DNA from: Lachnospiraceae bacterium
GTDB lineage: Bacteria > Bacillota > Clostridia > Lachnospirales > Lachnospiraceae
NCBI GenBank assembly: GCA_017520425.1
Contig: JAFXFO010000035.1
Coordinates: forward strand, 1-32,363
DNA: 32,363 nt
Direction: 5' to 3'
Shown here: positions 1 through 30,323 of the stretch, one piece after another
Layout of the letters: every line of letters starts with the position of its first letter
How positions within the stretch are numbered: the first letter of the stretch is position 1
Made by a program: the position numbers and the translations under genes
Notes under the pieces: model-generated
Seen by the model: the letters and a program-made list of their open reading frames with translations, nothing else
Databases searched by the model: none
What the model was told of the DNA's origin: nothing

Positions 1-221
1 AAAAGAGCTAAAAGCTCATCCCAAAACCCAGAAAAGTTAAAAAGTGGCTTAACTTTTGGGACTACAAGGTCAGAAAAAGAGCTAAAAGCTCATCCCAAAA
101 CCCAGAAAAGTTAAAAAGTGGCTTAACTTTTGGAACAACAAGGCCAGAAAAAGAGCTAAAAGCTCATCCCAAAATGAAGAAAAGCAAAAAGTGGCTTAAT
201 TTTTGGGACAGCTAGGCTAGG
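1..221. repeat. Three tandem 74-bp repeat units, each with hairpins
   Basis: Units begin at 1, 75 and 149 (period 74; the last is 73 bp and more diverged). Each opens with the small palindrome GAGCT-AAA-AGCTC, followed by an interrupted palindrome with arms TCCCAAAA and TTTTGGGA, at 19-61, 93-135 (one mismatch) and 167-208. Units 1 and 2 also hold a nested perfect inverted repeat, AAAAGTTAA/TTAACTTTT, which would compete with the outer stem. The array touches the window edge, so more copies may lie upstream. It precedes the Nudix-led gene run. The 42-43 nt hairpin span matches the other arrays in this window. Confidence 0.9.
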
Positions 222-227
222 AAAAGA

Positions 228-6721: not shown

Positions 6722-7450
6722 ATGAACATATTTGAACAAGTAGAAAAAAACATAAACAAACTGGTAGAAAACAATGTAAATTGGTCTGCCTGTGCCACAG
6801 CTGAGGAAATGCAGCGAGCCAGAGAGGGTAGGCTTTCCATAAAGTTTTTTGATAAGGAAGTACCAGCGGACTGGTTGAAAGGTATCAAAGGGAAAAAGGT
6901 TCTGTGTCTGGCAGGAGCAGGAGGCTTACAGGCGCCACTAATTGCCTGTGCGGGAGCAGAGGTGACGGTTTTAGACCTTTCCGAGAAGATGCTGGAGAAG
7001 GACAGGGAAATAGCGGAAAAGGAACAGCTGAATATCCGCATTGAAAAAGGGAATATGTGCGATTTGTCACGCTTTGCGGATGGCAGTTTTGATTGCATAT
7101 TAAACCCTACTTCTCTGATGTATGTACCGGATGTAAGGCCGGTATTTCAGGAAGTCAGTCGAGTACTAAAGGTGGGCGGAAGCTTTATCATGATGGCACC
7201 CAATCCCATCAACTATCTGTGCGACTTCGTGGAGGACGAAACCGGCGGATATTATAAGGCGGTGAACAGGATGCCTTACTGCTCTTCGAACCACGACGGC
7301 ATGAGTGATTGGGTAGAATATGGCCACACCATGGAAGATTATATCGGTGGGCAGATCGAATGCGGCCTGGTAATCAACGGTTATGTGGAATGCCAGTTGG
7401 AGGATATCACGGAATTACACTTTTTAACCAGGGCGATCAAGCAGGGATAG
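6722..7450 (+). CDS. Class I SAM-dependent methyltransferase
   Basis: A 242-residue Rossmann methyltransferase. Motif I is LCLAGAGG (61-68) rather than the common DLGCGxG, the acidic ribose-binding residue is D85 (VTVLDLS), and SRVLKVGG is the post-IV motif. The C-terminal part carries the DYIGGQIECG stretch seen in UbiE/Methyltransf_11-like small-molecule enzymes. It starts three bases after the CHAP gene. Substrate not inferable. Confidence 0.88.
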   Translation: MNIFEQVEKNINKLVENNVNWSACATAEEMQRAREGRLSIKFFDKEVPADWLKGIKGKKVLCLAGAGGLQAPLIACAGAEVTVLDLSEKMLEKDREIAEKEQLNIRIEKGNMCDLSRFADGSFDCILNPTSLMYVPDVRPVFQEVSRVLKVGGSFIMMAPNPINYLCDFVEDETGGYYKAVNRMPYCSSNHDGMSDWVEYGHTMEDYIGGQIECGLVINGYVECQLEDITELHFLTRAIKQG

Positions 7451-7475
7451 TGAAAACAGCAGAAGGGGGTTGGGT

Positions 7476-7811
7476 ATGTATAGCTATTTTTACATAAAAA
7501 CAGATTGTCGTTCCAATACATGGGATACCATCGAGATTCTGGATTATTTACGGTCATTTACCATGCTTGAAGAAAGAGACAATGGGATTTTTGTCAGCAA
7601 GAAGCCTTTTCTTGATATTTCGCTTATGAAGGTGAAGGATTTAAATAGTTGGAGCAGTCTGGATTTTGATAAAGACGAAACAAACTATGTGTCGATTGTT
7701 ACCAGTGACTTTAGTGAAGAGGATATAGAAGTGAAAAAGTTGCTAAAGGGCTTGGAGCAATTATTGGGATTTAGAATCTGCGTTGATAACTGCGAAAGGG
7801 AAGTGTGGTAA
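7476..7811 (+). CDS. Hypothetical protein, 111 aa
   Basis: A 111-residue acidic protein that I do not recognise. It starts at ATG 7476 behind AAGGGGG; a TTG two codons upstream is less likely. No transmembrane segment, signal peptide or cysteine motif is seen. The C-terminal KKLLKGLEQLLGF is probably helical and the middle looks beta-rich, in the style of small immunity-like proteins, but that is only an impression. It is the last gene before the AT-rich hairpin array. Confidence 0.6.
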   Translation: MYSYFYIKTDCRSNTWDTIEILDYLRSFTMLEERDNGIFVSKKPFLDISLMKVKDLNSWSSLDFDKDETNYVSIVTSDFSEEDIEVKKLLKGLEQLLGFRICVDNCEREVW

Positions 7812-8348
7812 TACAAAGGGATGACTTTATAGTGGTGTAAAAGCATATATAAATATCAAATTTTTATAATATATCTGTTAAACAACCGGAACAAAATTTG
7901 TTGGTGACAGATAGATGTTTACAAAATGCAATATATATACGCTTAAAAAACTCTTCTGAAATGGAACTGGCAGATATAAGGTAATAAAAACTAAAATCTA
8001 TATGTCATATTTTTACTTGAATTATATTTTTCAGCAGATAGATTTGTAAATATGAACAGTGCTATCTGTCAAAGCGAAGACAACCAGCAAAAATATAACG
8101 GATAGATTTAGAGAATAGTAAATTTATATCCGTCGTATAAGTTGCATTTAAGAATTTTGAGCATATATATTCTAGATTTTATTAAAAAATATCTGTCTCA
8201 AGTGTATTTTGAACACGTATTTTGACGGATAGATTATAAGTTATTTCTGTTTATATAGGTATATGCAACAATTTGAAGCTGTAGGAAATATTTAGTCATG
8301 TGGAAAGAATGAAGGCTCGCAAATATTTTAATTTATGGAGACGAAATT
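7812..8348. repeat. Five-hairpin intergenic array, word GACAGATA/TATCTGTC
   Basis: No credible ORF lies in these 537 AT-rich bases. Five interrupted palindromes are visible: 7872-7913 (TATCTGT/ACAGATA), 7968-8007 (TGGC..ATATA with TATAT-GTCA, imperfect), 8034-8069 (GCAGATAG/CTATCTGT), 8098-8133 (ACGGATA/TATCCGT) and 8190-8231 (TATCTGTC/GACGGATA). Linkers are about 54, 26, 28 and 56 nt, a long-short-short-long layout. Mismatches in arms are mostly G-T, which would remain paired in RNA. I cannot place a convincing promoter. It separates the upstream gene run from the GNAT at 8349. Confidence 0.8.
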
Positions 8349-8819
8349 ATGGAATTAAGAATGGCACAGGAAAAAGATTATATGCAGTTAGCAGAGATGA
8401 AATGGTTACATTGTGAAGAAGATGATGCAGATTATCATACATCACGGTTGGCTGGAGTAGATAAGGACAAATTTCTGGAAGAATTTATAGCGTTTTTAAA
8501 GGAACATAAAGAATATAAAGCTTTTGTGGCGAGTGAAGGCGATTTGATTATTTCTTCCATGTTTGTATATGTAATACCCAAAACACCTAAGCCAAATAGA
8601 AAACAAAAATATATTTCTTATTTGACCAATGTTTATACATTAAAGGAATATCGTAATAAGACAATAGGAACAGAGTTATTAACATATATTAAAGATTATT
8701 TGGCAAAAGAAGATTGTGAATTGATGTTTGTATGGCCAAGTGCCAATTCTGTTAATTGGTATTCCAGAAATGATTTCAAACAAGAGAATGAAATTTTTGA
8801 GTGTTCTTTAGAAAATTAG
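8349..8819 (+). CDS. GNAT family N-acetyltransferase
   Basis: A 156-residue GNAT. The loop region YRNKTIGTEL (101-110) has T where the first glycine of RxxGxG is usual, and the C-terminal WYSRNDF motif is recognisable. The gene is clearly more AT-rich than most neighbours, like the array before it, suggesting a different recent origin. GGAG lies eight bases before the ATG. Acceptor unknown; altered acetyl-CoA binding is possible. Confidence 0.82.
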   Translation: MELRMAQEKDYMQLAEMKWLHCEEDDADYHTSRLAGVDKDKFLEEFIAFLKEHKEYKAFVASEGDLIISSMFVYVIPKTPKPNRKQKYISYLTNVYTLKEYRNKTIGTELLTYIKDYLAKEDCELMFVWPSANSVNWYSRNDFKQENEIFECSLEN

Positions 8820-8829
8820 GGGAAAATGA

Positions 8830-9066
8830 ATGTCACATAGCAAACACACAAAACGGGATTACTCCATTTATATTGAAAAATGGGACAAATCAGCAAAAAA
8901 ATACATCCATACCTGCGCAATATGCGGGCATAAAGGTTACAGCCCGGTAGTTGAAGCGGAAGACTTTGACAAGGTGATTTTCAAAGAATTGTCGAAAACC
9001 TTGCGTAAGCTGGAGTTGGATGAGTATGGAAGATGTACTTATTGTGCGAAGGTGCAGGGGGACTAA
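8830..9066 (+). CDS. Small zinc-ribbon protein, 78 aa
   Basis: A 78-residue protein with two CxxC knuckles, C29-AI-C32 and C69-TY-C72, separated by a helical segment (DFDKVIFKELSKTLRKLELDE). This would bind one structural zinc. The N-terminus is basic. The ATG follows AGGGGAA by six bases; an out-of-frame ATG lies four bases earlier. I do not recognise the family. It sits between a GNAT and a histidine phosphatase and ends one base before the latter starts. Confidence 0.7.
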   Translation: MSHSKHTKRDYSIYIEKWDKSAKKYIHTCAICGHKGYSPVVEAEDFDKVIFKELSKTLRKLELDEYGRCTYCAKVQGD

Positions 9067-9067
9067 T

Positions 9068-9604
9068 ATGATTTATTTAATGCGACATGGGGCTGACCCA
9101 ACCGATCGTTACGGTGGGTGGAGTACCTATGGATTGACTGAAAAGGGTAGGGAACAGGTTAATAATGCCAAGGGATTCCTACGCAATAAGGGTATTTCGC
9201 AGATCTATTCCAGTGATTTAGCCAGGGCAAAGGAAACCGCTGAAATTGTGGCAAAGGAGCTTGCTTTGGAAGTCACATATCTGCCTCAATTTCGGGAAGC
9301 GAATAATGGTTTATTGGCCGGTATGCTGAAAACAGAAGCTGCAGAGAAATATCCGGGAATGTATTGGAATGCGCTTGATTGGACAGAAAGCTGGCCGGAG
9401 GGAGAAAGCCCCGAGCAGTTCTTTCAGAGGATTCAAACGGCATGGCAGGAATTCAAGTGCCGGGTAGGCGAGGACAATGTATTGTTGGTGTCCCACGGAG
9501 GTGTCATGAACATCATTTTATGTTTGGAAAACGGAATACCTTATACGAACAAGGAGACACGCTTTCCGATGAAAGATGCAGAGATTGTGCAGGTAAATAT
9601 ATAA
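9068..9604 (+). CDS. Histidine phosphatase superfamily protein
   Basis: A 178-residue phosphoglycerate-mutase-like phosphatase. The RHG motif has nucleophile H7, R53 lies in LARAKET, E77 is a candidate general acid and H143 is in VSHGG. The family removes phosphate from phospho-sugars, nucleotides (CobC-type) or proteins through phosphohistidine. I start at ATG 9068 with GCAGGGGG upstream; the frame extends further 5' but would overlap the zinc-ribbon gene by nearly 50 bp. Substrate unknown. Confidence 0.9.
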   Translation: MIYLMRHGADPTDRYGGWSTYGLTEKGREQVNNAKGFLRNKGISQIYSSDLARAKETAEIVAKELALEVTYLPQFREANNGLLAGMLKTEAAEKYPGMYWNALDWTESWPEGESPEQFFQRIQTAWQEFKCRVGEDNVLLVSHGGVMNIILCLENGIPYTNKETRFPMKDAEIVQVNI

Positions 9605-9628
9605 AGCTGATAAGGTTGGTGAAGTATT

Positions 9629-9967
9629 ATGTTAAAAAAGCAGTGCGAAAAATGTGGCTTTGAATACGAATATGAAGGATTTGCGAATCTGATGGTTTTC
9701 TGTCCTTGCTGTAATGAGTTTGACTATTTGTCATGTGAATACGGCTTCGGACCGGTGGTACCCTGTCGGATTTATCATGGAAAAAATGTGGTAGGGATGG
9801 TTTCTTATAATGATGCTTCTGAACGTGTTTATAGGATAGACTCGGAAACTTACAACATCCATGAAGTGTTACAACGTAAATATTTAGAGGCACTATATGA
9901 AGCGAAAGATATTATTTCGGAATTTGTGAAGAACGATAAGTTTGAAGTTGATAGTAAGTTAGGATAA
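9629..9967 (+). CDS. Small zinc-ribbon protein, 112 aa
   Basis: A 112-residue protein with an N-terminal zinc ribbon (C6, C9 and C25, C27/C28 in CPCC) followed by a beta-rich middle and a helical tail (LEALYEAKDIISEFVKN). I do not recognise it beyond the ribbon. It is AT-rich like the preceding GNAT. It lies between two phosphatases and ends three bases before the metallophosphoesterase. It may be an adaptor or nucleic-acid-binding protein, but there is no direct evidence. Confidence 0.65.
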   Translation: MLKKQCEKCGFEYEYEGFANLMVFCPCCNEFDYLSCEYGFGPVVPCRIYHGKNVVGMVSYNDASERVYRIDSETYNIHEVLQRKYLEALYEAKDIISEFVKNDKFEVDSKLG

Positions 9968-9970
9968 ATT

Positions 9971-10576
9971 ATGAAAATAGCAGTATTTTCCGATATTCAC
10001 GGAAATCTGAAAGCATTGAAAGCAGTGCTTGAACAGATAAAGGAAAAAAATGTAGATTTGACAGTGTTTTTGGGTGATATTTTTCAAGGCGGGCATGAAG
10101 AGATAGAGTGTCTGGAACTCTTAAAGGACAGTGAAATAGTCTGTTTAAAAGGCAATTGTGAGCTTTATATGCAATATGGCGTTGATATCGATCCGGATGT
10201 GGAGTATTTGAGGGATTATTATGACGAAACCAGAAAAAAGCTTACAAGTGAGCATATGCAGTTCATCAGGGAGATGTCGCTATTTTATGAAAGTGAATGT
10301 AACGGTCATAAAATACATTTTTCACATTTTTTGTTTTCGGATATCCATGCCGCTTATCCTTTTTTCCAGCTGTCAGACTTGAAAAACGGCGTGTTTGATA
10401 AGGCTTGTGAAAGTGAAGACGTGACAAAATATGAACTGTCTGTAATCGGCCATTGTCATCAGAATTTCGTGAAAGGAAATGTGGTTTCTGTTTCCGCTTC
10501 CGGGTTGGAAGGGGCGTCCTTCCTTTTGATTGATGATAATGAGGAAGGGGTTAACTTTGAGCATATTGGCATTTAG
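9971..10576 (+). CDS. Calcineurin-like metallophosphoesterase
   Basis: A 201-residue YfcE/MJ0936-type metallophosphoesterase. Metal ligands follow the family order: D8 and H10 (FSDIHGN), D36 (LGD), N62 (GNC), H119 (SHF) and H161/H163 (GHCH). The usual GNH is GNC here, which occurs in the YfcE-like branch. Members hydrolyse phosphodiesters, including cyclic nucleotides. The start follows the zinc-ribbon gene by three bases, so the two are probably co-translated. Confidence 0.9.
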   Translation: MKIAVFSDIHGNLKALKAVLEQIKEKNVDLTVFLGDIFQGGHEEIECLELLKDSEIVCLKGNCELYMQYGVDIDPDVEYLRDYYDETRKKLTSEHMQFIREMSLFYESECNGHKIHFSHFLFSDIHAAYPFFQLSDLKNGVFDKACESEDVTKYELSVIGHCHQNFVKGNVVSVSASGLEGASFLLIDDNEEGVNFEHIGI

Positions 10577-10604
10577 TTTGCCAAATCCATGAGGTGACAA
10601 AACC

Positions 10605-11060
10605 ATGAAAATAGAACTACGAACCATAGATGATACCAATAAGGATGATGTAGTATTGCTGGAAGTGTGGGACGCGCAAAAGGAATTTATTGCAGCGAAT
10701 CAGGTTTCCTTAGAAACTGCACGGAGTGAAGAATATAGGGAAATAGCACGACCCTTCGCCATATATGCGGATGATAAGCCGGTAGGCTTTACCATGTTTG
10801 CCTTTGAGCTGGATTCAAATGACCCCAATGACAGATATTGGCTGTGGCGTTTTATGATTGATAAGAAGTTGCAGGGCAATGGCTATGGTTCAGCAGCGCT
10901 GGAAAAGATTATCGATTATTTCAAAAGTCACGGAGCAGACCATATTTTGCTGTCTACCAAGGAGACCAACACAGTAGCCCTTTCTCTGTATCACAAGTAC
11001 CGGTTTGCGGAAACTGGGGAAATGAATGAGGGCGAGATTGTGTTGCGGTTAAGTCTGTAG
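10605..11060 (+). CDS. GNAT acetyltransferase, BltD/polyamine type
   Basis: A 151-residue GNAT resembling BltD-type spermine/spermidine acetyltransferases. The stretch RYWLWRFMIDKKLQGNGYG (78-95) is characteristic, with acetyl-CoA loop QGNGYG, and is followed by LLSTKETNTVALSLYHKYRF. The YWLWRFMID segment is the best substrate clue among the GNATs here and suggests a polyamine or diamine acceptor; this is family-based inference. GAGGTGACAAAACC precedes the ATG. It is the last gene before the TTGGGCAT hairpin array. Confidence 0.87.
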   Translation: MKIELRTIDDTNKDDVVLLEVWDAQKEFIAANQVSLETARSEEYREIARPFAIYADDKPVGFTMFAFELDSNDPNDRYWLWRFMIDKKLQGNGYGSAALEKIIDYFKSHGADHILLSTKETNTVALSLYHKYRFAETGEMNEGEIVLRLSL

Positions 11061-11376
11061 TTGCCGGATTTTAAGGTATTTTAGGGCTATTGGGCATGCA
11101 AAGGACTTTCGTAGCTTCCATGCCCAATAAAATGGCAGTTTTGGTGGAAAATAGCAGTGAAAATGGCTTGTTTGGGTATAGGTGGCGCCGATGCATAGTC
11201 TTATGCCCAAAGAGAGGGCACTATTTTGGGCAGGGTTAAGGGATTTGATTTCGGTATGCCCAAACGGTCCAATTATTATAAGATAATGTAGCAATGGAAG
11301 TAATTTCTTGGGCATAAATGAGGCCTTTCTTGAACCTCTGCCCAATTTAGAGACTTACGTGAAGGAGAAGTCAATT
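11061..11376. repeat. Four-hairpin intergenic array, word TTGGGCAT/ATGCCCAA
   Basis: Four interrupted palindromes: 11088-11129 (TATTGGGCAT/ATGCCCAATA, perfect 10 bp), 11171-11211 (TTTGGGTATA/TATGCCCAAA, one G-T pair), 11225-11264 (TTTGGGCA/TGCCCAAA, perfect) and 11308-11345 (TTGGGCA/TGCCCAA, perfect). Hairpin starts are spaced 83, 54 and 83 nt. Linkers are long-short-long (41, 13, 43). An AT-rich stretch with TATAAGATAAT near 11277-11287 could hold a -10 box, but no good -35 pairs with it. An open frame from 11308 into the kinase gene is treated as non-coding. Confidence 0.9.
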
Positions 11377-11937
11377 ATGGCAAATATATATATGATATCC
11401 GGTCCCTGCGGATGTGGAAAATCAACGCTTACGGATGCCTATGCGGAGTATTTGGTGAAGGTAGAGAAGCGGACTTATGTTTATGTGATACATGGGGATG
11501 TGTTTCATCAGGGATTTATAGGAATGTACGAAAAAGATGCCTTTTGTGTGGAATTACAAGAGACGGACCCATTAGCTTGGACACAGGTGTTGAAGTTTAA
11601 CTGGGAATGTATTGTGGATGTGGCAGGAAAGGCTTTGAAGCGAGGCTTGGATGTGGTAATTGATTATGTAGTTGAGGACGAATTGCCACTGTTACAGAAG
11701 CTTGCAAAGGAATATGATGCAAAGCTGTATTATCTGGTACTTACTGCGTCAGAGGAGGCAATCACAAAACGTCTTCAGTCCCGGGGAGATGACGAATTGA
11801 TTGAGAGAGGAATATTCTTAAAGAAGAAGTTTGACAGTCTTCCGGAGAATCAGGGACATCTCTATGACAATACGGAAAAGACAGTGGAAGAGGAAGTGGC
11901 AGAGCTTTCGAAAGATATGGAAAATTTTTTAGTGTAG
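11377..11937 (+). CDS. P-loop small-molecule kinase
   Basis: A 186-residue AAA_33-like kinase with Walker A G9-PCGCG-K15-ST and a C-terminal LID-like region (RLQSRGDDELIERG). Relatives include shikimate/chloramphenicol-type kinases and ATP-binding proteins often annotated by P-loop only. ATG 11377 has GAAGGAGAAG nine bases upstream and codes an immediate beta strand (NIYMISGP). The frame runs 69 bp further upstream into hairpin 4, so I reject the longer form. Phosphoryl acceptor unknown. Confidence 0.88.
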   Translation: MANIYMISGPCGCGKSTLTDAYAEYLVKVEKRTYVYVIHGDVFHQGFIGMYEKDAFCVELQETDPLAWTQVLKFNWECIVDVAGKALKRGLDVVIDYVVEDELPLLQKLAKEYDAKLYYLVLTASEEAITKRLQSRGDDELIERGIFLKKKFDSLPENQGHLYDNTEKTVEEEVAELSKDMENFLV

Positions 11938-11981
11938 TAGTGGATGTAATAGACTACAAGAGAAAAGGAGAAGAACAAAAC

Positions 11982-12698
11982 ATGAATCATTACAGCAATT
12001 ACATTTATATGTTAGAAGATAATGCCCACTTAATCAGCATGGTGCCGGTAGAGGAATTGGTACGCTTCGGCTATGAGATAGGGCTAAATGAAGATATGAA
12101 GGTTCTGGACCTGTGTTGTGGGTATGGAACGCTGTTGAAGGTATGGAGCGAAGCCTTTGGGATAGAAGGCGTCGGTATTGACCTTGTGGATGAGTTCTTA
12201 TCCATCGGAAGAGAACGGCTGAAAAAGTGTCAGATGGATAAGGTTACCCTTATACAGGGGGATGTTACAACATATCAGGATACTTGTAAGTATGATGTTG
12301 TTATTTGCAGTGAGACAATAGGGAGTAGTGCGGATACATTGGCCCTCGGAGAGAAATTTTTGAAGCCGGGTGGAGTGCTGTGCTATCAGAAGCTGTATTC
12401 AAAGGTAATGAATCCGCCTCAGGAACTAATTGATTTTGATGAGGAAGTTTTGCCCTTGTCTGAGTTAAATAGTCTATTCAATCAGCTTGGTTACAGTATG
12501 ACTTCCATGGCAAGTGATACTCAGGGAATGTGGGAGCGCTATGTACTCAATTGGAGCGGTAAGCGTGACCTGCTTCGGTTAAAGGCGGAACCGGATAACG
12601 AGCAATTAAGAAATTGGGTAAATAAGTGGTACAACATGTATTTTGATTATAGGCGACAGTATGAAGGACAGGCATTATTTGGATTACAGCGGTTCTGA
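11982..12698 (+). CDS. Class I SAM-dependent methyltransferase
   Basis: A 238-residue methyltransferase with motif I VLDLCCGYG (41-49), an acidic GVGIDLVDEF strand 2, CSETIGSS as motif IV and a LKPGG loop. The C-terminal third (WERYVLNWSGK onward) resembles small-molecule or SAM-binding regulator types. ATG 11982 follows AAAAGGAGAAG; a GTG at 11940 in the same frame is rejected as it nearly abuts the previous stop. Substrate unknown. Confidence 0.88.
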   Translation: MNHYSNYIYMLEDNAHLISMVPVEELVRFGYEIGLNEDMKVLDLCCGYGTLLKVWSEAFGIEGVGIDLVDEFLSIGRERLKKCQMDKVTLIQGDVTTYQDTCKYDVVICSETIGSSADTLALGEKFLKPGGVLCYQKLYSKVMNPPQELIDFDEEVLPLSELNSLFNQLGYSMTSMASDTQGMWERYVLNWSGKRDLLRLKAEPDNEQLRNWVNKWYNMYFDYRRQYEGQALFGLQRF

Positions 12699-12713
12699 AA
12701 AGGAGAAGAGAAA

Positions 12714-13244
12714 ATGATTTACTACGAAGATGATAGATTACGAATCCGCAACATGGAAGAAGCGGATGATCAAGTTTTTTACGATGAATACACTGCCCAG
12801 GGATGGCACCCGGAAATTGGAGATTGTCTGATGAGACTGAAAGACCAGGCGGAGGGGAAATGCATTACCCTGACGGCGGTATATCAGGGACATCCTGCCG
12901 GTTCCGTGTATGTGTACCTAAATGCCAAGGAAGGTCCCTTCAAAGGGAAGGGGTTGCCGATAATCGTTGATTTCAGCGTGTTGCAAAAGTATCAAAGAAA
13001 GGGAATCGGCAACAAACTGATGGACGTGGCGGAGCAGATTGCAGGGCAGTATGCGGATACGGTTTGCCTGGGCGTAGGGCTTTGCGATGCTTATGGCAGT
13101 GCCCAGAGGATGTATGTGAAGCGCGGATACATTCCGGACGGATCCGGTGTCTGGTATCAGGACAAGCAATGTGTCCAATACGAGACGGTTTGTACCATTG
13201 ACGACGACCTGGTGCTGTACCTTTCCAAGAAGCTGAGGGATTGA
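12714..13244 (+). CDS. GNAT family N-acetyltransferase
   Basis: A 176-residue GNAT with acetyl-CoA loop QRKGIG (94-99) after LPIIVDFSVLQKY, and a motif B region GSAQRMYVKRGY. The C-terminal extension includes WYQDKQCVQYE, seen in GNATs often annotated only as acetyltransferase. AAAAGGAGAAGAG precedes the ATG, nearly identical to the leader of the methyltransferase upstream. Acceptor unknown. Confidence 0.88.
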   Translation: MIYYEDDRLRIRNMEEADDQVFYDEYTAQGWHPEIGDCLMRLKDQAEGKCITLTAVYQGHPAGSVYVYLNAKEGPFKGKGLPIIVDFSVLQKYQRKGIGNKLMDVAEQIAGQYADTVCLGVGLCDAYGSAQRMYVKRGYIPDGSGVWYQDKQCVQYETVCTIDDDLVLYLSKKLRD

Positions 13245-13264
13245 GAAGTTTTAGGAGGAAAATA

Positions 13265-13930
13265 ATGAATGCCAAATTACTGGGATTTTTCAGCGGATTT
13301 CCCACACGCCACTTTACAGACTCCATCGCAGAGGTGCTGAAAGAGGCGCTGGAGGTTCGAGACAGCCTTGTGTTTATCAGCTGTCAGCCGGATAATTATA
13401 CACAAAACGATGAAGATTCACACGGTATGCATAGGATGTTTGCAGAGAGAAATATGCCTTTTGTAAAGCACTATGTGATTGACCATCGGACCAAAGGGTC
13501 GGAGGCTGTAAGGTTAGTCCGTGAGGCCTCTTGCATTTTCCTTATGGGAGGCAATGCAACCCTGCAGTTTCAGCTGATGCGTGAGAAAGGGATCCTTGAT
13601 GAGGTTCGCCGTAGCAGTGCCGTGATACTGGGTGTCAGCGCAGGCGCTATGAACATGGGAGGTCCTACGGTGGATATCTATGAAACCCCTACACCTTATG
13701 AAGGTTTAGGATTTGCAAATATTACAATCAAGGCTCATTATCCTTTAGAGGACGAATGGTTGCAGGCTTTGAAGCAGGTTTCCATGGGGCTGCCGGTGTG
13801 CCTTATGACGGATGAAAGTGCAATTTTTGTGAAAGAAGAAAGAATAACAAAGATAGGGGAAGTTTATCGGTTGGAAAAAGGGGAGATTAGGCCCCTTACG
13901 CGGGAGCAGTTGGAAAGGATGAGGAAGTGA
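13265..13930 (+). CDS. Peptidase S51 (PepE-like) protein
   Basis: A 221-residue class I glutamine-amidotransferase-like serine peptidase. It has the GGN motif at 95-97 (FLMGGNAT), nucleophile S125 in GVSAGAMN and H158 in KAHYP. Peptidase E enzymes cleave Asp-X dipeptides; cyanophycinases are relatives. The TAGGAGGAAAATA leader supports ATG 13265; an in-frame TTG at 13241 lies in the previous gene. The end overlaps the next GNAT in a TGATG arrangement, so translation is coupled. Confidence 0.87.
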   Translation: MNAKLLGFFSGFPTRHFTDSIAEVLKEALEVRDSLVFISCQPDNYTQNDEDSHGMHRMFAERNMPFVKHYVIDHRTKGSEAVRLVREASCIFLMGGNATLQFQLMREKGILDEVRRSSAVILGVSAGAMNMGGPTVDIYETPTPYEGLGFANITIKAHYPLEDEWLQALKQVSMGLPVCLMTDESAIFVKEERITKIGEVYRLEKGEIRPLTREQLERMRK

Positions 13931-14373
13931 TGATAAATATAAGAGTAATGACAATCAATGATTATGACGGAGTATACGATTTGTGGATTAATACGCCCGG
14001 GATGGGCTTAAATACAACCGATGACAGCAGAGAAGGGATTGCAAAGTATTTAAGGCGAAATCCTACCACAAGCTTTGTGGCAGACTGTGAAGGTACTATT
14101 ATTGGAGTGATAATGGCCGGTCACGACGGTAGACGAGGATATATTCATCATACTGCGGTTTTGCCCACTTATAGAAATCAGGGAATTGCTAAAAAGCTTG
14201 TGGATAGCGCGATGTCCGCATTGGATGAAGAAGGTATAAATAAGGTTGCGTTAGTGGCTTTTAAGAAGAATGCGTTAGGCAATGGTTTCTGGGAGAATCG
14301 CGGATTTACGGACAGGGAGGATTTGGTATACAGGAACAAGAATATCCATGCGTTAGATCGGATTGATACCTGA
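13930..14373 (+). CDS. GNAT family N-acetyltransferase
   Basis: A 147-residue compact GNAT with RNQGIA (82-87) after YIHHTAVLPTY and a closing FWENRGF. This is the RimI-like minimal architecture. The ATG shares a base with the TGA of the peptidase gene and uses AGGAAG within it; GTG 13927 would add one residue. Acceptor unknown. Confidence 0.87.
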   Translation: MINIRVMTINDYDGVYDLWINTPGMGLNTTDDSREGIAKYLRRNPTTSFVADCEGTIIGVIMAGHDGRRGYIHHTAVLPTYRNQGIAKKLVDSAMSALDEEGINKVALVAFKKNALGNGFWENRGFTDREDLVYRNKNIHALDRIDT

Positions 14374-14426
14374 TACGAAAGCTAATCGGACGAATAAAGG
14401 ATTGTTTTAGATTTACGGAGGTACAT

Positions 14427-15014
14427 ATGGAATACGAAATTATCCCCTTGCCCAAAAAGGAGTGGAAAGGGGTACCGATTTTGATGCGATACACCACAGA
14501 AGAATATTATGATTTAGAAACAAGGACCGGAAGCGACGGGTTTCAAGTACAGATGGTGAAAAAGAAATTTGACATTCCGGTGACGCATACGCCGGAGGAG
14601 TACGATTTCCCGGATGGTTTGTATCAGGACCATTGGGAAAAGGCGGAAGCCTTTGGAATCGTTTCCGAAAAGGACGGCAAAAAAGAGCTGCTGGCATGCA
14701 TAGAGATTTGTCCGGAGGAGTGGAGTAACCGCCTTATGGTGACAGAGCTTTGGGTGGCGGATGAGCTTCACAGGCAGGGTATCGGTACTCGCTTGATGAA
14801 TGTGGCAAAAGAGCAGGCAAAGAAGCAGGGCAGAAGAGCCATTATCTTAGAAACCCAGTCCTGCAACGTGCGTGCCATCGCCTTTTACTTAAGTCAAGGG
14901 TTCGAATTGATAGGATTTGACTCCTGCTGTTACACCAATATTGATGTGGAGAGACAGGAGGTCCGCTTTAACTTTGGGTACTTTTTGCACAAGCGTGGAG
15001 GAAGATACGAGTAA
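14427..15014 (+). CDS. GNAT acetyltransferase, streptothricin-acetyltransferase-like
   Basis: A 195-residue GNAT whose C-terminal half resembles streptothricin N-acetyltransferases: ELWVADELHRQGIG (107-120), AIILETQSCNVRAIAFY, then a hydrophobic GFELIGFD and a conserved YTNID. The N-terminal 80 residues are longer than in classical Sat proteins. The similarity is by motif pattern only, so a resistance function is not claimed. ACGGAGGT stands six bases from the ATG. Confidence 0.83.
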   Translation: MEYEIIPLPKKEWKGVPILMRYTTEEYYDLETRTGSDGFQVQMVKKKFDIPVTHTPEEYDFPDGLYQDHWEKAEAFGIVSEKDGKKELLACIEICPEEWSNRLMVTELWVADELHRQGIGTRLMNVAKEQAKKQGRRAIILETQSCNVRAIAFYLSQGFELIGFDSCCYTNIDVERQEVRFNFGYFLHKRGGRYE

Positions 15015-15028
15015 TCAGGAGGGGTATC

Positions 15029-15784
15029 ATGAAAGAAATGAAGCACGACAGCTCCACCCTTGCGTGGAGTGCCATGGGAGATGAATGGTTTGAGCTGGCA
15101 CAGACAGGAGAGTCCAGAATCCATTTTATAATGCCTAATATGCTGAAGTTTATGGGAGATGTGGCAGGCCGGAAAATCCTGGATTTAGGCTGTGGAGAAG
15201 GCGGCTATTCCAGGGAGCTGGCGAAAAGAGGAGCGCAGTTGGTTGCGGTGGATTGTTCCGCGAAAGCCATTGAATATGCGACTTCTCTTGCCAAGGAAGA
15301 GAATCTTTCCATAGAGCATTTTGTGAGAAACAGCAATGACTTATTTGACATAGAATCCGAACAGTTTGATGTGGTGCTTTGTTCCATGATGCTTATGGAC
15401 TGCGAGGACTTCGAGGGAACCTTACGTGAGGTGGTACGGGTGTTGAAGCCGGGAGGACGGTTGTTTGCAAGTGTGTTGCATCCCTGCTTTGATGGCAATC
15501 ACGATACCGGCATAGGACGCCAGGGTGTTGGCATCGACCGACAGGTGGTTGTCATGAATTATTTTGAACCCAAGGAGTGGGAGGCGCCTCTCTGGCAAGG
15601 GAAGACGCCTGTGATTTGGAGGCACAGAACCATGGAGGATTATGTGAAGACCTTTATCAAGGTGGGGCTGACCATCGTGGATTTGAACGAGCCCCGGGCT
15701 ACAGACGAGCAGGCCGAAATATCCGTGGCCATGGCATGGCTAAAAAAGATACCGTTGTATTTGTATTGGGAGTTAAAGAAATAA
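15029..15784 (+). CDS. Class I SAM-dependent methyltransferase
   Basis: A 251-residue methyltransferase with a textbook motif I ILDLGCGEGG (50-59), VAVDCS strand 2, FDVVLCSMMLMD motif IV and RVLKPGGRLF. The C-terminal portion (KTPVIWRHRTMEDY) resembles Methyltransf_11/25 enzymes acting on small molecules. An AGGAGGGG ribosome binding site precedes the ATG. Substrate unknown. Confidence 0.9.
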   Translation: MKEMKHDSSTLAWSAMGDEWFELAQTGESRIHFIMPNMLKFMGDVAGRKILDLGCGEGGYSRELAKRGAQLVAVDCSAKAIEYATSLAKEENLSIEHFVRNSNDLFDIESEQFDVVLCSMMLMDCEDFEGTLREVVRVLKPGGRLFASVLHPCFDGNHDTGIGRQGVGIDRQVVVMNYFEPKEWEAPLWQGKTPVIWRHRTMEDYVKTFIKVGLTIVDLNEPRATDEQAEISVAMAWLKKIPLYLYWELKK

Positions 15785-15786
15785 GA

Positions 15787-16392
15787 ATGAAGCTACTACG
15801 GGCAAGCACAGAACATGAAATGATATTGGAATTCCTAAAAGCGGAAAGCACCTCTGAGAGATTCTCTAAGAAACTGGAAAAGGCAATGGTAGACCATGGG
15901 TTTGACGAGGAGATTATTACCAAAGCAGATTTGCAAAGTGAGCTCCAGAATACCCAAAGAAAGAAGCTACTGGGCACATTCCGCGGATATGGAGAGGGCA
16001 GAGAGCTGTTTGAGAGGTTCCCAACACGCTTTACAGAGTGGAGCTTATGCAGTTTTTCGGCATCGGATTTAGAGAAGATCCGATATATCGATTACAGCTA
16101 TTGGAATGAGCTGTCTGCAGGTACCCGCAAGCCTATGGCTGCGGCTGAGACTATCCGGCGCGGGGTACGAATTTTCGAGGTAAGCAATGAAGGATTTTTA
16201 CGTGCAGCGGAGTATATAAAGGACGGTGGCACTTTTCCTAAGCCCTTCTTCATCACAGCCGACTATGAGACCTTTGTCATAGTGGAGGGGCATCAAAGGA
16301 TGACTGCATATGCACTGGTTCCGGAGTGCTTTGAGGAGATAGAGGTCGTCGTGGGCAAGTGTAACGAGGAAGAGCTTCGTTTGTGGATGTGA
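15787..16392 (+). CDS. Unrecognised protein with ParB/Srx-like EGHxR motif
   Basis: A 201-residue protein. The C-terminal part reads FVIVEGHQRMTAYAL (163-177), which resembles the nucleotide-binding GHxR motif of ParB/sulfiredoxin-type domains (E167, H169, R171). The N-terminal 100 residues look helical, with no recognisable domain. ATG 15787 is two bases after the methyltransferase stop; the frame is open far upstream but overlaps that gene in another frame, so the longer version is rejected. The ribosome binding site is weak, consistent with coupled translation. ParB/Srx relationship is tentative. Confidence 0.7.
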   Translation: MKLLRASTEHEMILEFLKAESTSERFSKKLEKAMVDHGFDEEIITKADLQSELQNTQRKKLLGTFRGYGEGRELFERFPTRFTEWSLCSFSASDLEKIRYIDYSYWNELSAGTRKPMAAAETIRRGVRIFEVSNEGFLRAAEYIKDGGTFPKPFFITADYETFVIVEGHQRMTAYALVPECFEEIEVVVGKCNEEELRLWM

Positions 16393-16401
16393 GGAGCAGA
16401 G

Positions 16402-16860
16402 ATGGAAATCATAGCTTATGAAATGCAACTGAATAAAGCTGTAACGGATGAGCCCAACATATCCTGCATACCCTTCCAAATGCAATATTTTGAAGAATAC
16501 AAGCGAATCTACAACGAATGCTTCTACGAAATGCGGAAGGCACTGGACATCGAACCATATAATTTCCTGCAGGCTTATGGGCAGATTGTGGATAAAGCGG
16601 GAGATATCTATTTATTGGTGGATAATGAAGAAATCATTGGGTCCGTGGCCTGCTACGGCAATGAAATAGATGATTTGATCGTAAACCCCGGATTTCGGCG
16701 TCAGGGTTATGGAAAGCAGCTTTTGCTTTGGGGGATTCAGCGTATCCGGGAGAGAAGTGACGAACCGATTACGTTACATGTGGCCGCCTGGAATCAAGGG
16801 GCTGTGGAATTGTATGAGAAGTGCGGGTTTGAGATTGTGAAGAGAGAGAAGGTTAGGTAA
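16402..16860 (+). CDS. GNAT family N-acetyltransferase
   Basis: A 152-residue GNAT with RRQGYG (99-104) after EIDDLIVNPGF and motif B AWNQGAVELYEKCGF. GAGGAGCAGAG precedes the ATG. It ends two bases before the first TTGGACAT arm, so the following hairpin element abuts its stop codon. Confidence 0.88.
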   Translation: MEIIAYEMQLNKAVTDEPNISCIPFQMQYFEEYKRIYNECFYEMRKALDIEPYNFLQAYGQIVDKAGDIYLLVDNEEIIGSVACYGNEIDDLIVNPGFRRQGYGKQLLLWGIQRIRERSDEPITLHVAAWNQGAVELYEKCGFEIVKREKVR

Positions 16861-17035
16861 ATTGGACATATAGAAAATTATAGGCATAAAATGTCCACAA
16901 AATAGGGCAAAACATGGACATCAGAGAGAGATTATTTTGTATATGTCCAAAATGTTTCAAAAAACTTCAAAAATACTATGAAAATGAATGTTTTTTGGAC
17001 ATTACAGGTAGAAAAATCTCTATATGACCAAAGCC
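16861..17035. repeat. Three-hairpin element, word TTGGACAT (copy 1)
   Basis: Three interrupted palindromes: 16862-16897 (TTGGACAT/ATGTCCA), 16915-16949 (TGGACAT/ATGTCCA) and 16995-17030 (TTGGACAT with degenerate ATGACC). Starts are spaced 53 and 80 nt, the same as the last three hairpins of 19103-19272. The two copies align over about 155 bp with roughly 85-90% identity by eye, including an identical stretch from TTTTTTGGACATTACAGG into GTAGAAAAA. They stand as direct repeats about 2.24 kb apart around three genes. Confidence 0.9.
16996..17024 (+). promoter_or_regulatory. Candidate sigma-A promoter inside hairpin element
   Basis: TGGACA (one mismatch from TTGACA) is followed 17 bases later by a poor TCTATA; TATATG at spacing 19 is the alternative -10. 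It lies 38 bp upstream of the GrpB-GNAT start, a sensible leader length. The -35-like box is part of the TTGGACAT repeat word, so a protein binding that word would occlude the promoter. The equivalent site in copy 2 is better. Confidence 0.3.
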
Positions 17036-17061
17036 GCCTATATTTGAGGGGAGAAGGATAA

Positions 17062-18066
17062 ATGACCACAAAACATGTGTTAGTCCAGCCATACAATAAG
17101 GCATGGAAGCAGAATTTTATAGATATCAAAGCTGAAATCAGGGATGCCCTGGGAGAATTGGCCTTGGAGATAGAGCATGTGGGCAGTACTTCGGTGGAAG
17201 GTCTTTCAGCGAAGCCTATCATCGATATCGATGTGGTCATTAAAGAGGAAATGCTGGATGATGTAATCTCGGCGCTTCAGCGAATCGGTTATCGACACGA
17301 GGGAAACCTTGGTATACCCGGTCGGGAAGCGTTTAAGTATGACGAGAAGGAACATTTGCAGAAGCATCATTTATATGTTTGCCCGCAGGATTCTGCGGAG
17401 CTAAGAAGGCATATTGCATTTAGGGATTATTTGCGTTCACATCCTGAAGCAGTGCGTGAGTACAGTCGTATCAAGGAAGAGGGCGCAAGATTATATCCCT
17501 ATGATATAGAGAAGTATATATTGCATAAGTCACCTTTTATAGAGAAAATTTATGGTATAATTCAGCAAGCACAATCTATTACCCATGCAAGTATAATCCT
17601 GGAACAGCTGACCCATGAAAATTACCACCATGCGTGTGAAATCGACAGAGATGATATCCCCGAGGAATGGGTGGATACTGCCGCAACCATAATGGAAACC
17701 AATGATTATGGTGTGGAAAATGGTTTGAAAGGACACACCTTTTTGGCACGAATGGGGGACAAGTACATCGGTCTGATTATGGTGGGTGAGGCACTTCCCT
17801 GGGATACGGATCCTGTGGAAATGCGGGGAATACCGTTTTACAGATTAATGGGCTTCGTGGTGGACAAAGAATACCGTAACAAAGGCCTGGGCGGTGAAAT
17901 TATGGAAAAAGCCATTGCGTTAGTGTATCAGGAATTTGGCAGACGTTCCTTGGCCCTTGGGGTTCATAAGGATAACACACAGGCCGGTCGATTCTACGAG
18001 AAGCATGGTTTTCAGAGAATGGGCGTCTTTGAGGGCGACGATGAATATTATTTGAGATTTCTTTAA
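17062..18066 (+). CDS. GrpB-domain / GNAT fusion protein
   Basis: A 334-residue two-domain protein. Residues 1-168 are a GrpB (UPF0157) nucleotidyltransferase-fold domain with EHVGSTSV (38-45), KPIIDIDVVI and KHHLYVC. Residues 175-334 are a GNAT domain with MGFVVDKEYRNKGLG (263-277) and RFYEKHGF. No in-frame ATG with a ribosome binding site lies at the junction, so the two are permanently fused. In other genomes GrpB occurs alone or fused to CoaE; fusion here suggests both act on the same substrate. GAGGGGAGAAGG precedes the ATG. Confidence 0.92.
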   Translation: MTTKHVLVQPYNKAWKQNFIDIKAEIRDALGELALEIEHVGSTSVEGLSAKPIIDIDVVIKEEMLDDVISALQRIGYRHEGNLGIPGREAFKYDEKEHLQKHHLYVCPQDSAELRRHIAFRDYLRSHPEAVREYSRIKEEGARLYPYDIEKYILHKSPFIEKIYGIIQQAQSITHASIILEQLTHENYHHACEIDRDDIPEEWVDTAATIMETNDYGVENGLKGHTFLARMGDKYIGLIMVGEALPWDTDPVEMRGIPFYRLMGFVVDKEYRNKGLGGEIMEKAIALVYQEFGRRSLALGVHKDNTQAGRFYEKHGFQRMGVFEGDDEYYLRFL

Positions 18067-18077
18067 GGAGGTACAGT

Positions 18078-18524
18078 ATGATAATCCGAAAAGCAAAAGG
18101 TAAGGATGCAAACGAGCTTAAGACACTTTACTTTGAGTATTTGACCCATTTTCCACCCAAGGAAGAGCAGGATATGGAAGTGTGGGAAAATATGCTGGAA
18201 AAGTTTGTACAGGATGAAAATATGTATTTGCTGGTGGCAGAGGAAGAGGGGAAAGTGGTATCTTCCGTACAGATGGCCATTATCGAAGGCCTAACGCACA
18301 ATGTCAGGCCTTTTGCCGTGATTGAAAATGTAGTAACCCACGCAGATTATCGCAACAGAGGCTTTGCTTCAGCATTGTTGGAAAAGGCTTCGGAAATCGC
18401 AAAGGCGCGCAGATGCTACAAGGTATTCCTGGAGACCGGATCCAACAAGGAAAGTACCTTAAACTTTTACAGAAACAACGGCTTTGCCATAGATGAAAAG
18501 CATTCTTGTTTGAAGAGGTTGTAG
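18078..18524 (+). CDS. GNAT family N-acetyltransferase
   Basis: A 148-residue compact GNAT with RNRGFA (92-97) after VIENVVTHADY and FLETGSNKESTLNFYRNNGF. The layout is RimI-like or aminoglycoside-6'-type, without substrate clues. A strong AAGGAGGT lies six bases before the ATG. It is the middle gene of the block flanked by the TTGGACAT elements. Confidence 0.88.
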   Translation: MIIRKAKGKDANELKTLYFEYLTHFPPKEEQDMEVWENMLEKFVQDENMYLLVAEEEGKVVSSVQMAIIEGLTHNVRPFAVIENVVTHADYRNRGFASALLEKASEIAKARRCYKVFLETGSNKESTLNFYRNNGFAIDEKHSCLKRL

Positions 18525-18534
18525 GGGAGAAGAG

Positions 18535-19020
18535 ATGGAGATTCGTATTGACCCCATATTGAGGGAACAAAAGTCTGTTTTTATGCAGATGATGGAATTA
18601 TATATGTACGATTTTTCGGAGTTTTCCGGCGAGGATATTAATGAATACGGATACTTTGGTTACTCTCGGATTGATGATTATTGGAATGAAGAGGGAAGAT
18701 ATCCGTTTTTCATCAGAGTGGACGGAATGCTGGCGGGATTGGTTTTGGTAAGGTCCTGCTGCGAATATAACAATCTGCCTAATCCTCATAATATAGCGGA
18801 ATTTTTCGTAATGAAAAAGTATCGGCGTAAAGGGGTAGGAAAGGCTGCCGCCATGAAGGTTTTTGACATGTTTCCCGGAAGCTGGGAGGTGGCACAGTGG
18901 AAAAGTAATGTGCCTGCTCAGAGCTTTTGGAAACAGGTTATCAGCGAGTATACAAAAGGAAAGTATGATACTTTTGTTGCGAAGGATAAAGAGGCAGTAG
19001 GCTTTACGTTTGACAGATAA
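18535..19020 (+). CDS. GNAT acetyltransferase, COG5628-like
   Basis: A 161-residue GNAT resembling COG5628 predicted acetyltransferases: YDFSEF near the N-terminus, AEFFVMKKYRRKGVG (88-102), MFPGSWEVAQ and a C-terminal FWKQVISEYTKGKY. TAGGGGAGAAGAG precedes the ATG. Its TAA stop is immediately followed by the first TTGGACATAT arm of the second hairpin element. Acceptor unknown. Confidence 0.88.
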   Translation: MEIRIDPILREQKSVFMQMMELYMYDFSEFSGEDINEYGYFGYSRIDDYWNEEGRYPFFIRVDGMLAGLVLVRSCCEYNNLPNPHNIAEFFVMKKYRRKGVGKAAAMKVFDMFPGSWEVAQWKSNVPAQSFWKQVISEYTKGKYDTFVAKDKEAVGFTFDR

Positions 19021-19341
19021 TTGGACATATACATAAAAAATATATCAGTATGTCCAAAAACCCGGTAAAATAAGGCGGATTTTCCCGTCTTTGAGTAAGG
19101 GATTGGACATATGGAAGATTTTAGGTAGAAAATGTCCACGAAATGGGGCAAACCATGGACATCTGAGAGAAATAATTTTGTATATGTCCAAAATGCTTCA
19201 AAAATCTTCCCAAATACTTTGAAAATGGATGTTTTTTGGACATTACAGGTAGAAAAAAATATATATGTCCAAAGTATTGTATTATTGAGGAGAGAAGCGC
19301 AAATAAGCGCAAGTTTGACCTAATTCATTGGGGGGGTATAT
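19021..19341. repeat. Four-hairpin array, word TTGGACAT/ATGTCCAA (copy 2)
   Basis: Four interrupted palindromes: 19021-19057 (TTGGACAT/ATGTCCAA), 19103-19138 (TTGGACAT/ATGTCCA), 19156-19190 (TGGACAT/ATGTCCA) and 19236-19272 (TTGGACAT/ATGTCCAA). Starts are spaced 82, 53 and 80 nt, nearly the same as the differently worded array at 11088-11345 (83, 54, 83). The last three hairpins are a diverged direct repeat of 16862-17030. The remaining bases up to 19341 show an AT-rich leader and the ribosome binding site of the next gene. Confidence 0.92.
19237..19265 (+). promoter_or_regulatory. Candidate sigma-A promoter inside hairpin 4
   Basis: TGGACA (one mismatch to consensus -35) is separated by 17 bp from TATATA (two mismatches to TATAAT). 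Both boxes lie within hairpin 4, so the -35 is the left arm and the -10 touches the right arm of the palindrome. Transcription would begin about 70 bp before the GNAT at 19342. Whether the word is an operator is inference. Confidence 0.4.
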
Positions 19342-30023: not shown

Positions 30024-30323
30024 GTTTAAATGGTTCCCATGAAATGGGATTGTATCTATATTGGAAAGTTGGCTAAAAAAGTATCCTTAAATAAAAAAAC
30101 GAGTATCTTTTTGGAGGATTAATGACCTATAGATACTTTTGAAGTAGGGATACGAAGAGCACGGGATTATGCAGGATTTGTATCGTTATTATGGTGTACC
30201 CAGGAGGAAATCCGAGGGAAAATTAAGAGGTATCGGGTGAAGGAAGTATCTATGTAGCAGAAGTTTATGTTTTGGATTGCCACTGGACTAGTGTAGAGTA
30301 TTTTAGAAAGGGCAGGTAAGAAG
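30024..30323. repeat. Degenerate hairpin array, word AGTATCT/AGATACT
   Basis: Two interrupted palindromes of 36 nt each, 30102-30137 (AGTATCT/AGATACT, perfect) and 30149-30184 (GATACGAA/TTTGTATC, one G-T pair), plus isolated GTATC half-sites near 30052, 30081, 30230 and 30246. A short hairpin TCCCAT-GAA-ATGGGA stands at 30035-30049. GGAGG followed by ATG at 30122 opens only a six-codon frame, and the downstream bases keep an open but start-less frame with coding-like composition, so a decayed gene is possible. No convincing CDS remains. Confidence 0.65.

Follow-up and report, generated by a model that had tools for sequence, protein, structure and literature searches.

Type III toxin-antitoxin systems carry a pair-specific repeat array next to a nuclease gene, the repeats lying upstream and acting as RNA. 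The BOX and RUP repeats of Streptococcus are small intergenic repeats of Gram-positive bacteria, as are the arrays described here, and we know of no cognate nuclease linked to them. RAYTs, in the cited passages, belong to the IS200/IS605-type tyrosine transposases and are said always to lie between two REPs, and the REP/REPIN repeats carry a GT(A/G)G head together with palindromes that complementary mutation preserves (PMC2817692, PMC8049555). Here we describe intergenic arrays of a repeated word and its inverted copy in a 32,363-nucleotide contig of a Lachnospiraceae bacterium (the window; JAFXFO010000035.1 of assembly GCA_017520425.1, or contig C32 of genome G000, whose 2.92 Mb lie in 42 contigs), and a family of small nuclease-like genes elsewhere in the same genome that such arrays adjoin. 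Judging from sequence comparisons, we think it fairly probable that the arrays are binding platforms of this family, itself probably of the PD-(D/E)XK type, in one-gene mobile units.

As with RAYTs and REPINs, a chromosomal gene stands beside its own repeats, one genome holds several repeat families, the repeats alternate in orientation, and stand-alone copies lie between genes (likenesses drawn from the same passages of PMC2817692 and PMC8049555). Unlike a RAYT, the enzyme is nuclease-like, with no Y1 transposase seen (chance matches to Pfam in two paralogs, PDC-S68 in four proteins), and the gene is seldom flanked by arrays on both sides (2 of 30 array-bearing genes, L096 and L148, L128 being a duplicate of L096). 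Unlike in REPINs, changes in one arm are not matched by complementary changes in the other (8 A-type and 5 B-type elements, lettered after the genes in Table 1), and recognition seems to go through spaced half-sites in DNA register. By analogy, the best reading is a nuclease/array unit that may work as RAYT and REPIN do with an unrelated enzyme, departing from them in enzyme, layout and palindrome. The PDC-S68 defence candidates of PADLOC, compared here by profile matches only, share with the family a C-terminal stretch of ~120 amino acids, but their models run to 1202-1273 positions, against 260 amino acids and a different N-terminal half here. Unlike in type III toxin-antitoxin systems, the position of the array is mixed (15 array rows downstream of the gene, 19 upstream) and the arms do not covary. 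Among open-licence PMC papers we found no description of a nuclease with such arrays, which does not establish their absence from print.

Each of the four resident family genes has its own array word

There is good support for a pairing of genes with arrays. The source genome holds four genes of the family, each adjoined by an array, with four different words, at gene-to-array distances of 92, 353, 138-146 and 115 nt (Table 1); the window, which contains none of these genes, has stand-alone arrays of all four types. An earlier note on the window had raised the possibility that the arrays are operators of distinct regulators, and four paralogs with four words fit the idea of distinct proteins for distinct words. 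Among 138 genomes of the genus, the family was matched at E ≤ 1e-4 in 51, at least four of which (G023, G069, G110 and G160) do so only by a C-terminal half that lies within a long frame. A strict array lay within 360 bp of the gene at 8 of 29 genus loci and at none of 580 shuffled loci.

Of 519 relatives in named genomes, the best 80 were analysed; their titles are those of Lachnospiraceae or of genera that we take to belong there (Roseburia, Agathobacter, Merdimonas, Tyzzerella, Blautia, Enterocloster and others), a few being labelled just Clostridia, Clostridiales or bacterium. Strict arrays lay within 700 bp of the gene at 21 of these 80 loci, with 23 arrays in 106 kb near the genes (one, at L184, overlapping its gene) against 3 in 249 kb beyond 1200 bp. 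Spacing-aware chains of at least two units lay within 600 bp at 30 of the 80 loci, with 37 in 91.7 kb near against 4 in 248.9 kb further away, the spacing classes having been derived from the data and applied equally near and far. Counting the best word beside the 80 genes was insensitive, standing at least 3 above every shuffle at just 6 loci. No other gene family stood beside the nuclease-like gene in more than 5 of the 80 loci. Among distinct family genes defined by motif, deduplicated because L094-L122 and L123-L202 overlap (L127 is L095, L128 is L096), 30 of 102 had a strict array within 700 bp, and 35 of 112 under looser rules; the count of 30 omits the array-bearing L112, L137, L146, L160 and L229, where the open reading frame (ORF) overlaps the array or lacks a motif. 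The words beside relatives vary, for example GCGGGGTA, GGGACATA, TAGGTCAT, GAGGGTAT, TTTTGCGT and CAGGCAAG.

Dispersed arrays bear the word of a resident gene in the source genome and in G082, G011 and G032. The TTGGGCGT pair, found in the array of gene L106 in G082, occurs eight times in that genome; these amount to six independent matches, because C5 and C27 share one duplicated stretch (100% identity over 3946 bp). It occurs once each in G068, G073 and G132 and in none of the remaining 134 of 138 genomes, and the reversed control matched once in each of two genomes. Gene L219 shares its word with a dispersed CTACGGG array in G011. At L169 and L180, ~1.3 kb upstream of the gene and beyond the near zone, we also saw arrays with another word, TGTACC.. 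(spacings 135/82 and 82/53/83), which perhaps belong to another family member.

Arrays of probable half-sites spaced in steps of about one DNA turn

An array unit consists of a word, a spacer and the same word inverted, and measures 37-39 bp in A-type and B-type arrays. Units repeat ~52, 63, 72, 82 or 92 bp apart, in steps of about one DNA turn. A word-independent scan, which required at least three pairs with a common word and a common arm distance, gave 21 arrays across the window and 20 stretches of the same genome (13 of them picked around matches) and 0 in shuffles; a stricter initial scan with exact 7-mers flagged A3 and A5 and no others. Raw counts of word copies rose above 60 shuffles in none of six groups, so the signal of the arrays is geometry rather than word count. 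Against shuffled sequence, the control that the earlier note had named, the hairpin layout thus stands out and the abundance of the words does not.

Across 51 non-tandem arrays, words agree between units at 0.88, a value inflated by the scan's demand for similar words; spacers, whose figure that demand does not affect, agree at 0.37, against 0.30 across different arrays. Arm complementarity is the same within a unit as between elements (0.88 vs 0.87 in 8 A-type elements, 0.89 vs 0.88 in 5 B-type elements), and the stem does not extend inward of the word (0.27 vs 0.31 in the A type, 0.42 vs 0.41 in the B type). Altogether 143 of 169 unit-to-unit spacings fall within 40-100 bp; they cluster at 50-54, 61-66, 69-75, 80-83 and 92-93 bp, with none at 55-60, 67-68, 76-79 or 84-91 bp, and give a Rayleigh R of 0.77 at a period of 10 bp (94 distinct word-spacing combinations; no p-value is attached because the sequences are related). 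Steps of one helical turn are what is expected of a protein stacked along double-stranded DNA. With spacers that differ and arms that do not compensate for each other's changes, the word resembles a half-site for a protein rather than the stem of an RNA.

These results bear on why the hairpins of an array share one word. Recognition of the word by a protein, one option that the earlier note had raised, is the option favoured by the absent arm covariation and the DNA-turn spacing, and the binding itself is what we propose; its alternative of structured RNA, for which arm covariation was the check, is not supported by the arms. Repeated internal duplication accounts for the tandem arrays with repeats of 53 and 74 bp; it does not account for the remaining arrays, in which spacer agreement is near chance. 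Words within one array change together, since the array at L030:17286 has the 37-bp plan, yet all six of its surviving words are of the TTGGGCAT type.

A family of small nuclease-like proteins

The family protein is ~260 amino acids long. That of gene A, which the TTGGACAT array adjoins, has 258 amino acids and no Pfam match; two paralogs gave only chance matches to Pfam at E ≤ 10, as did all four proteins to NCBIfam, and a sequence search of the PDB found no convincing relative. In all four proteins tested, the C-terminal half matches that end of PADLOC PDC-S68 (E 1e-27 to 2e-25), and in three of the four it matches a model named PD-DEXK (E 6e-5 to 5e-3), with weak matches, in one protein each, to phage 'endonuclease' (0.008) and 'Holliday junction resolvase' (0.005) families. 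RSKSE, YE, PDF and E-H-x-G are invariant in a 15-sequence alignment, for which frames were picked partly by such motifs; this way of choosing frames erred at 3 of 33 loci (L097, L105 and L115), which were excluded from protein alignment A1. Among 80 relatives found by another route, RSKSE is kept in 80 and PDF in 76; EH.G is also kept in 80, but E-H was part of the search pattern. Judged by these sequence matches, the protein is likely a PD-(D/E)XK nuclease, although the usual lysine of the last motif is absent.

The N-terminal half is more variable, with a mean column entropy of 2.08 against 1.49 bits in the 15-sequence alignment. Between L146 and L160, protein identity is 0.72 in the N-terminal half and 0.91 in the C-terminal half, a divergence consistent with fast change of recognition. 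Nine plasmid protein records (covering 40-57% of the protein) and eight viral contigs match the C-terminal half alone; annotations of the plasmid genes that match the C-terminal stretch include AAA ATPase, RecD-like and RecQ. Three protein records carry a phage label, one of them covering 89% of the protein at 30% identity.

Dispersed copies and their presence or absence

Similar arrays, which the earlier note had suggested seeking in the source genome and its relatives, were found in both. The pattern TTGGRCAT-N18-26-ATGYCCAA has 17 exact matches in the source genome and 0 in a reversed control; among 60 relatives, G032 has four such pairs, G017 one with a shorter spacer, and the other 58 none. 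Copies in the source genome are mostly spaced 80-82/52/81-82 (37-bp units) or 81-83/53/82-83 (38-bp units), with some units missing. BLAST with A5 found 11 places including A5 itself, and several of the matches start or stop within 2 nt of a word. Arbitrary stretches of the source genome gave one array in 20 (400 kb) and one in seven more (L045), against five arrays in the 32-kb window, itself chosen for its arrays.

Arrays are present in the source genome and absent at matching sites of relatives. Contig C28 is collinear with G087 except at gene A and its array, where own positions 7443-9009 face ~20 nt between BLAST matches; the sortase and MSD genes that flank gene A are 195 nt apart in G087. 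Because these neighbours adjoin without gene A in three related species, G087, G082 and G008, and probably in a fourth, G030, where the second gene was identified by DNA match only, gain of gene A and its array in the source lineage is the simplest account. Two stand-alone arrays are likewise absent from G087, one after EPSP synthase (C18) between two matching flanks and one beside a histidine kinase (C8) with one flank matching only. At the site of gene B, the source genome and G087 differ, and the G087 stretch has no array.

A 5-kb contig assigned to G073 (L244, G073:C50) is 96-99% identical to the source genome, against ~80% for G073's own EF-G, and is perhaps a contaminant or a transfer. 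On it, array B is 99% identical and begins at its outermost word after ~110 nt of unlike sequence, and gene B is broken by an internal deletion. A4 and A5 form a same-word direct pair that encloses a few genes, its members lying ~2 kb from each other, and so do two arrays on C22; such pairs might point to composite units.

A possible mechanism and the points against it

In the mechanism that we propose, each protein would recognise its own word, and a dimer would bind word, spacer and inverted word. Neighbouring units in helical register would then let several dimers stack on one face of the DNA. Gene and array would together form a one-gene mobile unit, of which gene-less arrays would be non-autonomous copies, and cutting at the word followed by repair, or some other transfer step, would copy arrays into new intergenic sites. 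Binding of the word by the protein is likely on the sequence evidence, and that the protein moves the arrays is our best current reading; the active nuclease, which would bind and cut at the word and so copy arrays elsewhere, is an inference. More tentatively, and at a little short of an even chance, these would be a class of mobile elements in Lachnospiraceae that is driven by a stand-alone PD-(D/E)XK-type nuclease, with no DDE transposase, HUH enzyme, recombinase or guide RNA, that copies helically phased word arrays intergenically, and whose paired arrays help to build gene-accumulation islands of the kind seen in this window. If true, this would add an enzyme class to the few proteins known to spread their own cognate repeats, account for a group of intergenic repeats that common gut bacteria carry, and give a testable source for the gene-accumulation islands of these genomes; the dozens of natural protein-word pairs would also make a rule of DNA recognition readable.

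Several points weigh against a nuclease that spreads its own arrays. PD-(D/E)XK enzymes alone are not known to us to transpose DNA, and a nuclease that cuts would have to leave intact the array adjoining the gene that encodes it. The last nuclease motif lacks its usual lysine, and PDF is missing in L146, L150, L154 and L160, four relatives at one site with shared downstream flanks. No strict array lies within 700 bp of 72 of the 102 family genes; contig ends and decay account for some of these, not necessarily all. Similarity of words does follow similarity of proteins (Mantel r 0.43 over 30 genes, with 0 of 2000 permutations as high), but this could be shared descent, because array and gene are linked. 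The result for the word CGGGGCTT was weak, with three of 138 genomes giving 1, 1 and 2 matches, and single matches occur without a family gene match in G068 and G132 (TTGGGCGT) and in G100 (CGGGGCTT). An array of the source genome at L033:2674-2916, with word ATTCTGCC and spacing 75/127, fits none of the four resident words. We noticed no target-site duplication by eye in the printed flanks, which are too diverged to place the junction.

Alternative explanations

The arrays could instead be operators, as the earlier note had also proposed, of a domesticated nuclease-like regulator or nucleoid protein that controls neighbouring genes or chromosome structure, the arrays being kept by selection. 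This rival still stands, and we regard it as unlikely. Most arrays sit between genes that run in the same direction, and crude ORF calls place 12 of 24, counting A6, no more than 60 nt from the stop codon upstream. Cooperative binding would fit the helical phasing, and the missing lysine would permit loss of catalysis; yet RSKSE and PDF are kept in the relatives at the frequencies given above, the syntenic sites examined show both gene and arrays to be lineage-specific, and the neighbouring genes are miscellaneous.

It is quite improbable that the arrays are ordinary miniature inverted-repeat transposable elements that depend for movement on a conventional transposase encoded at another place in the genome, with the nuclease-like gene as a passenger. 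Dispersed copies, inverted ends, a size of 251 bp and a partly palindromic whole element would suit such elements, but each paralog has its own word, target duplications were not noticed in the printed flanks, and the sole recurring partner over 80 loci is the nuclease-like gene, which was itself the query in a comparison that did not search for the genome's transposases.

Least probable are structured RNA arrays, for example the RNA antitoxin of an RNase: the arrays can be folded in predictions, which gives this reading no support, and tandem units beside a nuclease-like gene recall the type III layout, but the arms neither covary nor extend into longer stems, the spacing steps match the DNA turn, arrays occur on the downstream side of the gene with roughly the same frequency as on the upstream side, and no Rfam model matches the window at gathering scores.

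Arrays and genes of the window

By its ORF list, read without a gene caller, the window holds ~47 collinear + strand reading frames (257-31783) and six gaps over 200 bp. Hairpin arrays, which the earlier note had reported in every such gap, were confirmed in five of the six, A1-A5 (Table 1). The sixth, A6 (30102-30184 in the earlier note), was missed by the word-independent scan, and its AGTATCT count is no higher than in shuffles.

Table 1 Family genes of the source genome and arrays of the window
Feature	Position	Strand	Word and units	Type or counterpart
Gene A	C28:27757		TTGGACAT	window arrays A4, A5
Gene B	C28:33327		TTGGGCA	window array A3
Gene C	C21:18711		CTTAGTTT, tandem	window array A1
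Gene D	C4:49342		CAGATAGA, lattice	window array A2
A1	1..222	+	three 74-bp tandem units; shared core AGTGGCTTA	C-type; before NUDIX gene 257-742
A2	7872..8231		ten ACAGATA-type half-sites, symmetric layout, 29/35-bp alternation	D-type
A3	11090..11346		four TTGGGCAT units, 38-39 bp, spacing 82/54/82	B-type
A4	16862..17031	+	three TTGGACAT units, spacing 52/81	A-type; four-unit array minus first unit
A5	19021..19272	+	four TTGGACAT/ATGTCCAA units, 37 bp, spacing 82/52/81	A-type
A6	30052..30253		AGTATCT group of the earlier note	not supported as an array

A1 was assigned to the C type because it aligns in register with the C-type arrays L093, L045 and L088 (scores 101-134, against maxima of 57-67 in 50 shuffles). 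The word first given for it, TCCCAAAA, is not the shared part; its units align with the other arrays through AGTGGCTTA. A2 has 11 ACAGATA-like half-sites in all, 10 of which fit the symmetric layout, and its word and 64-bp lattice recur beside gene D (L092, G000:C4) and at L038:3173; the word-independent scan recovered it partially, with one member wrong. The word and spacing class of A3 recur beside gene B (L037:12771-13028), and an array with the A5 word adjoins gene A (L037:8627-8877). A4 is 88% identical to A5 and corresponds to the last three units of its pattern. A3 and A5 follow a common plan of four units with unlike words.

Proteins encoded beside arrays matched the GNAT domain in seven of ten scanned, NUDIX in one and an AAA domain in one, with no match in the last; by eye, unscanned genes of this island of ~47 frames resemble HAD, methyltransferase and kinase genes. 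Array DNA had no match in phages or plasmids. By GC skew, A-type arrays lie in the leading-strand sense in 8 of 10 cases and contrary to it in 2, which we did not use as evidence. After one A-type array, the next gene (L036:12303-13715) encodes a TIR domain with BspA-type leucine-rich repeats. In another species, a CGGATAAA lattice array with a D-like word and spacing 64/63/44/64 lies a few kilobases from EF-G (L249:4470-4738, G081:C175).

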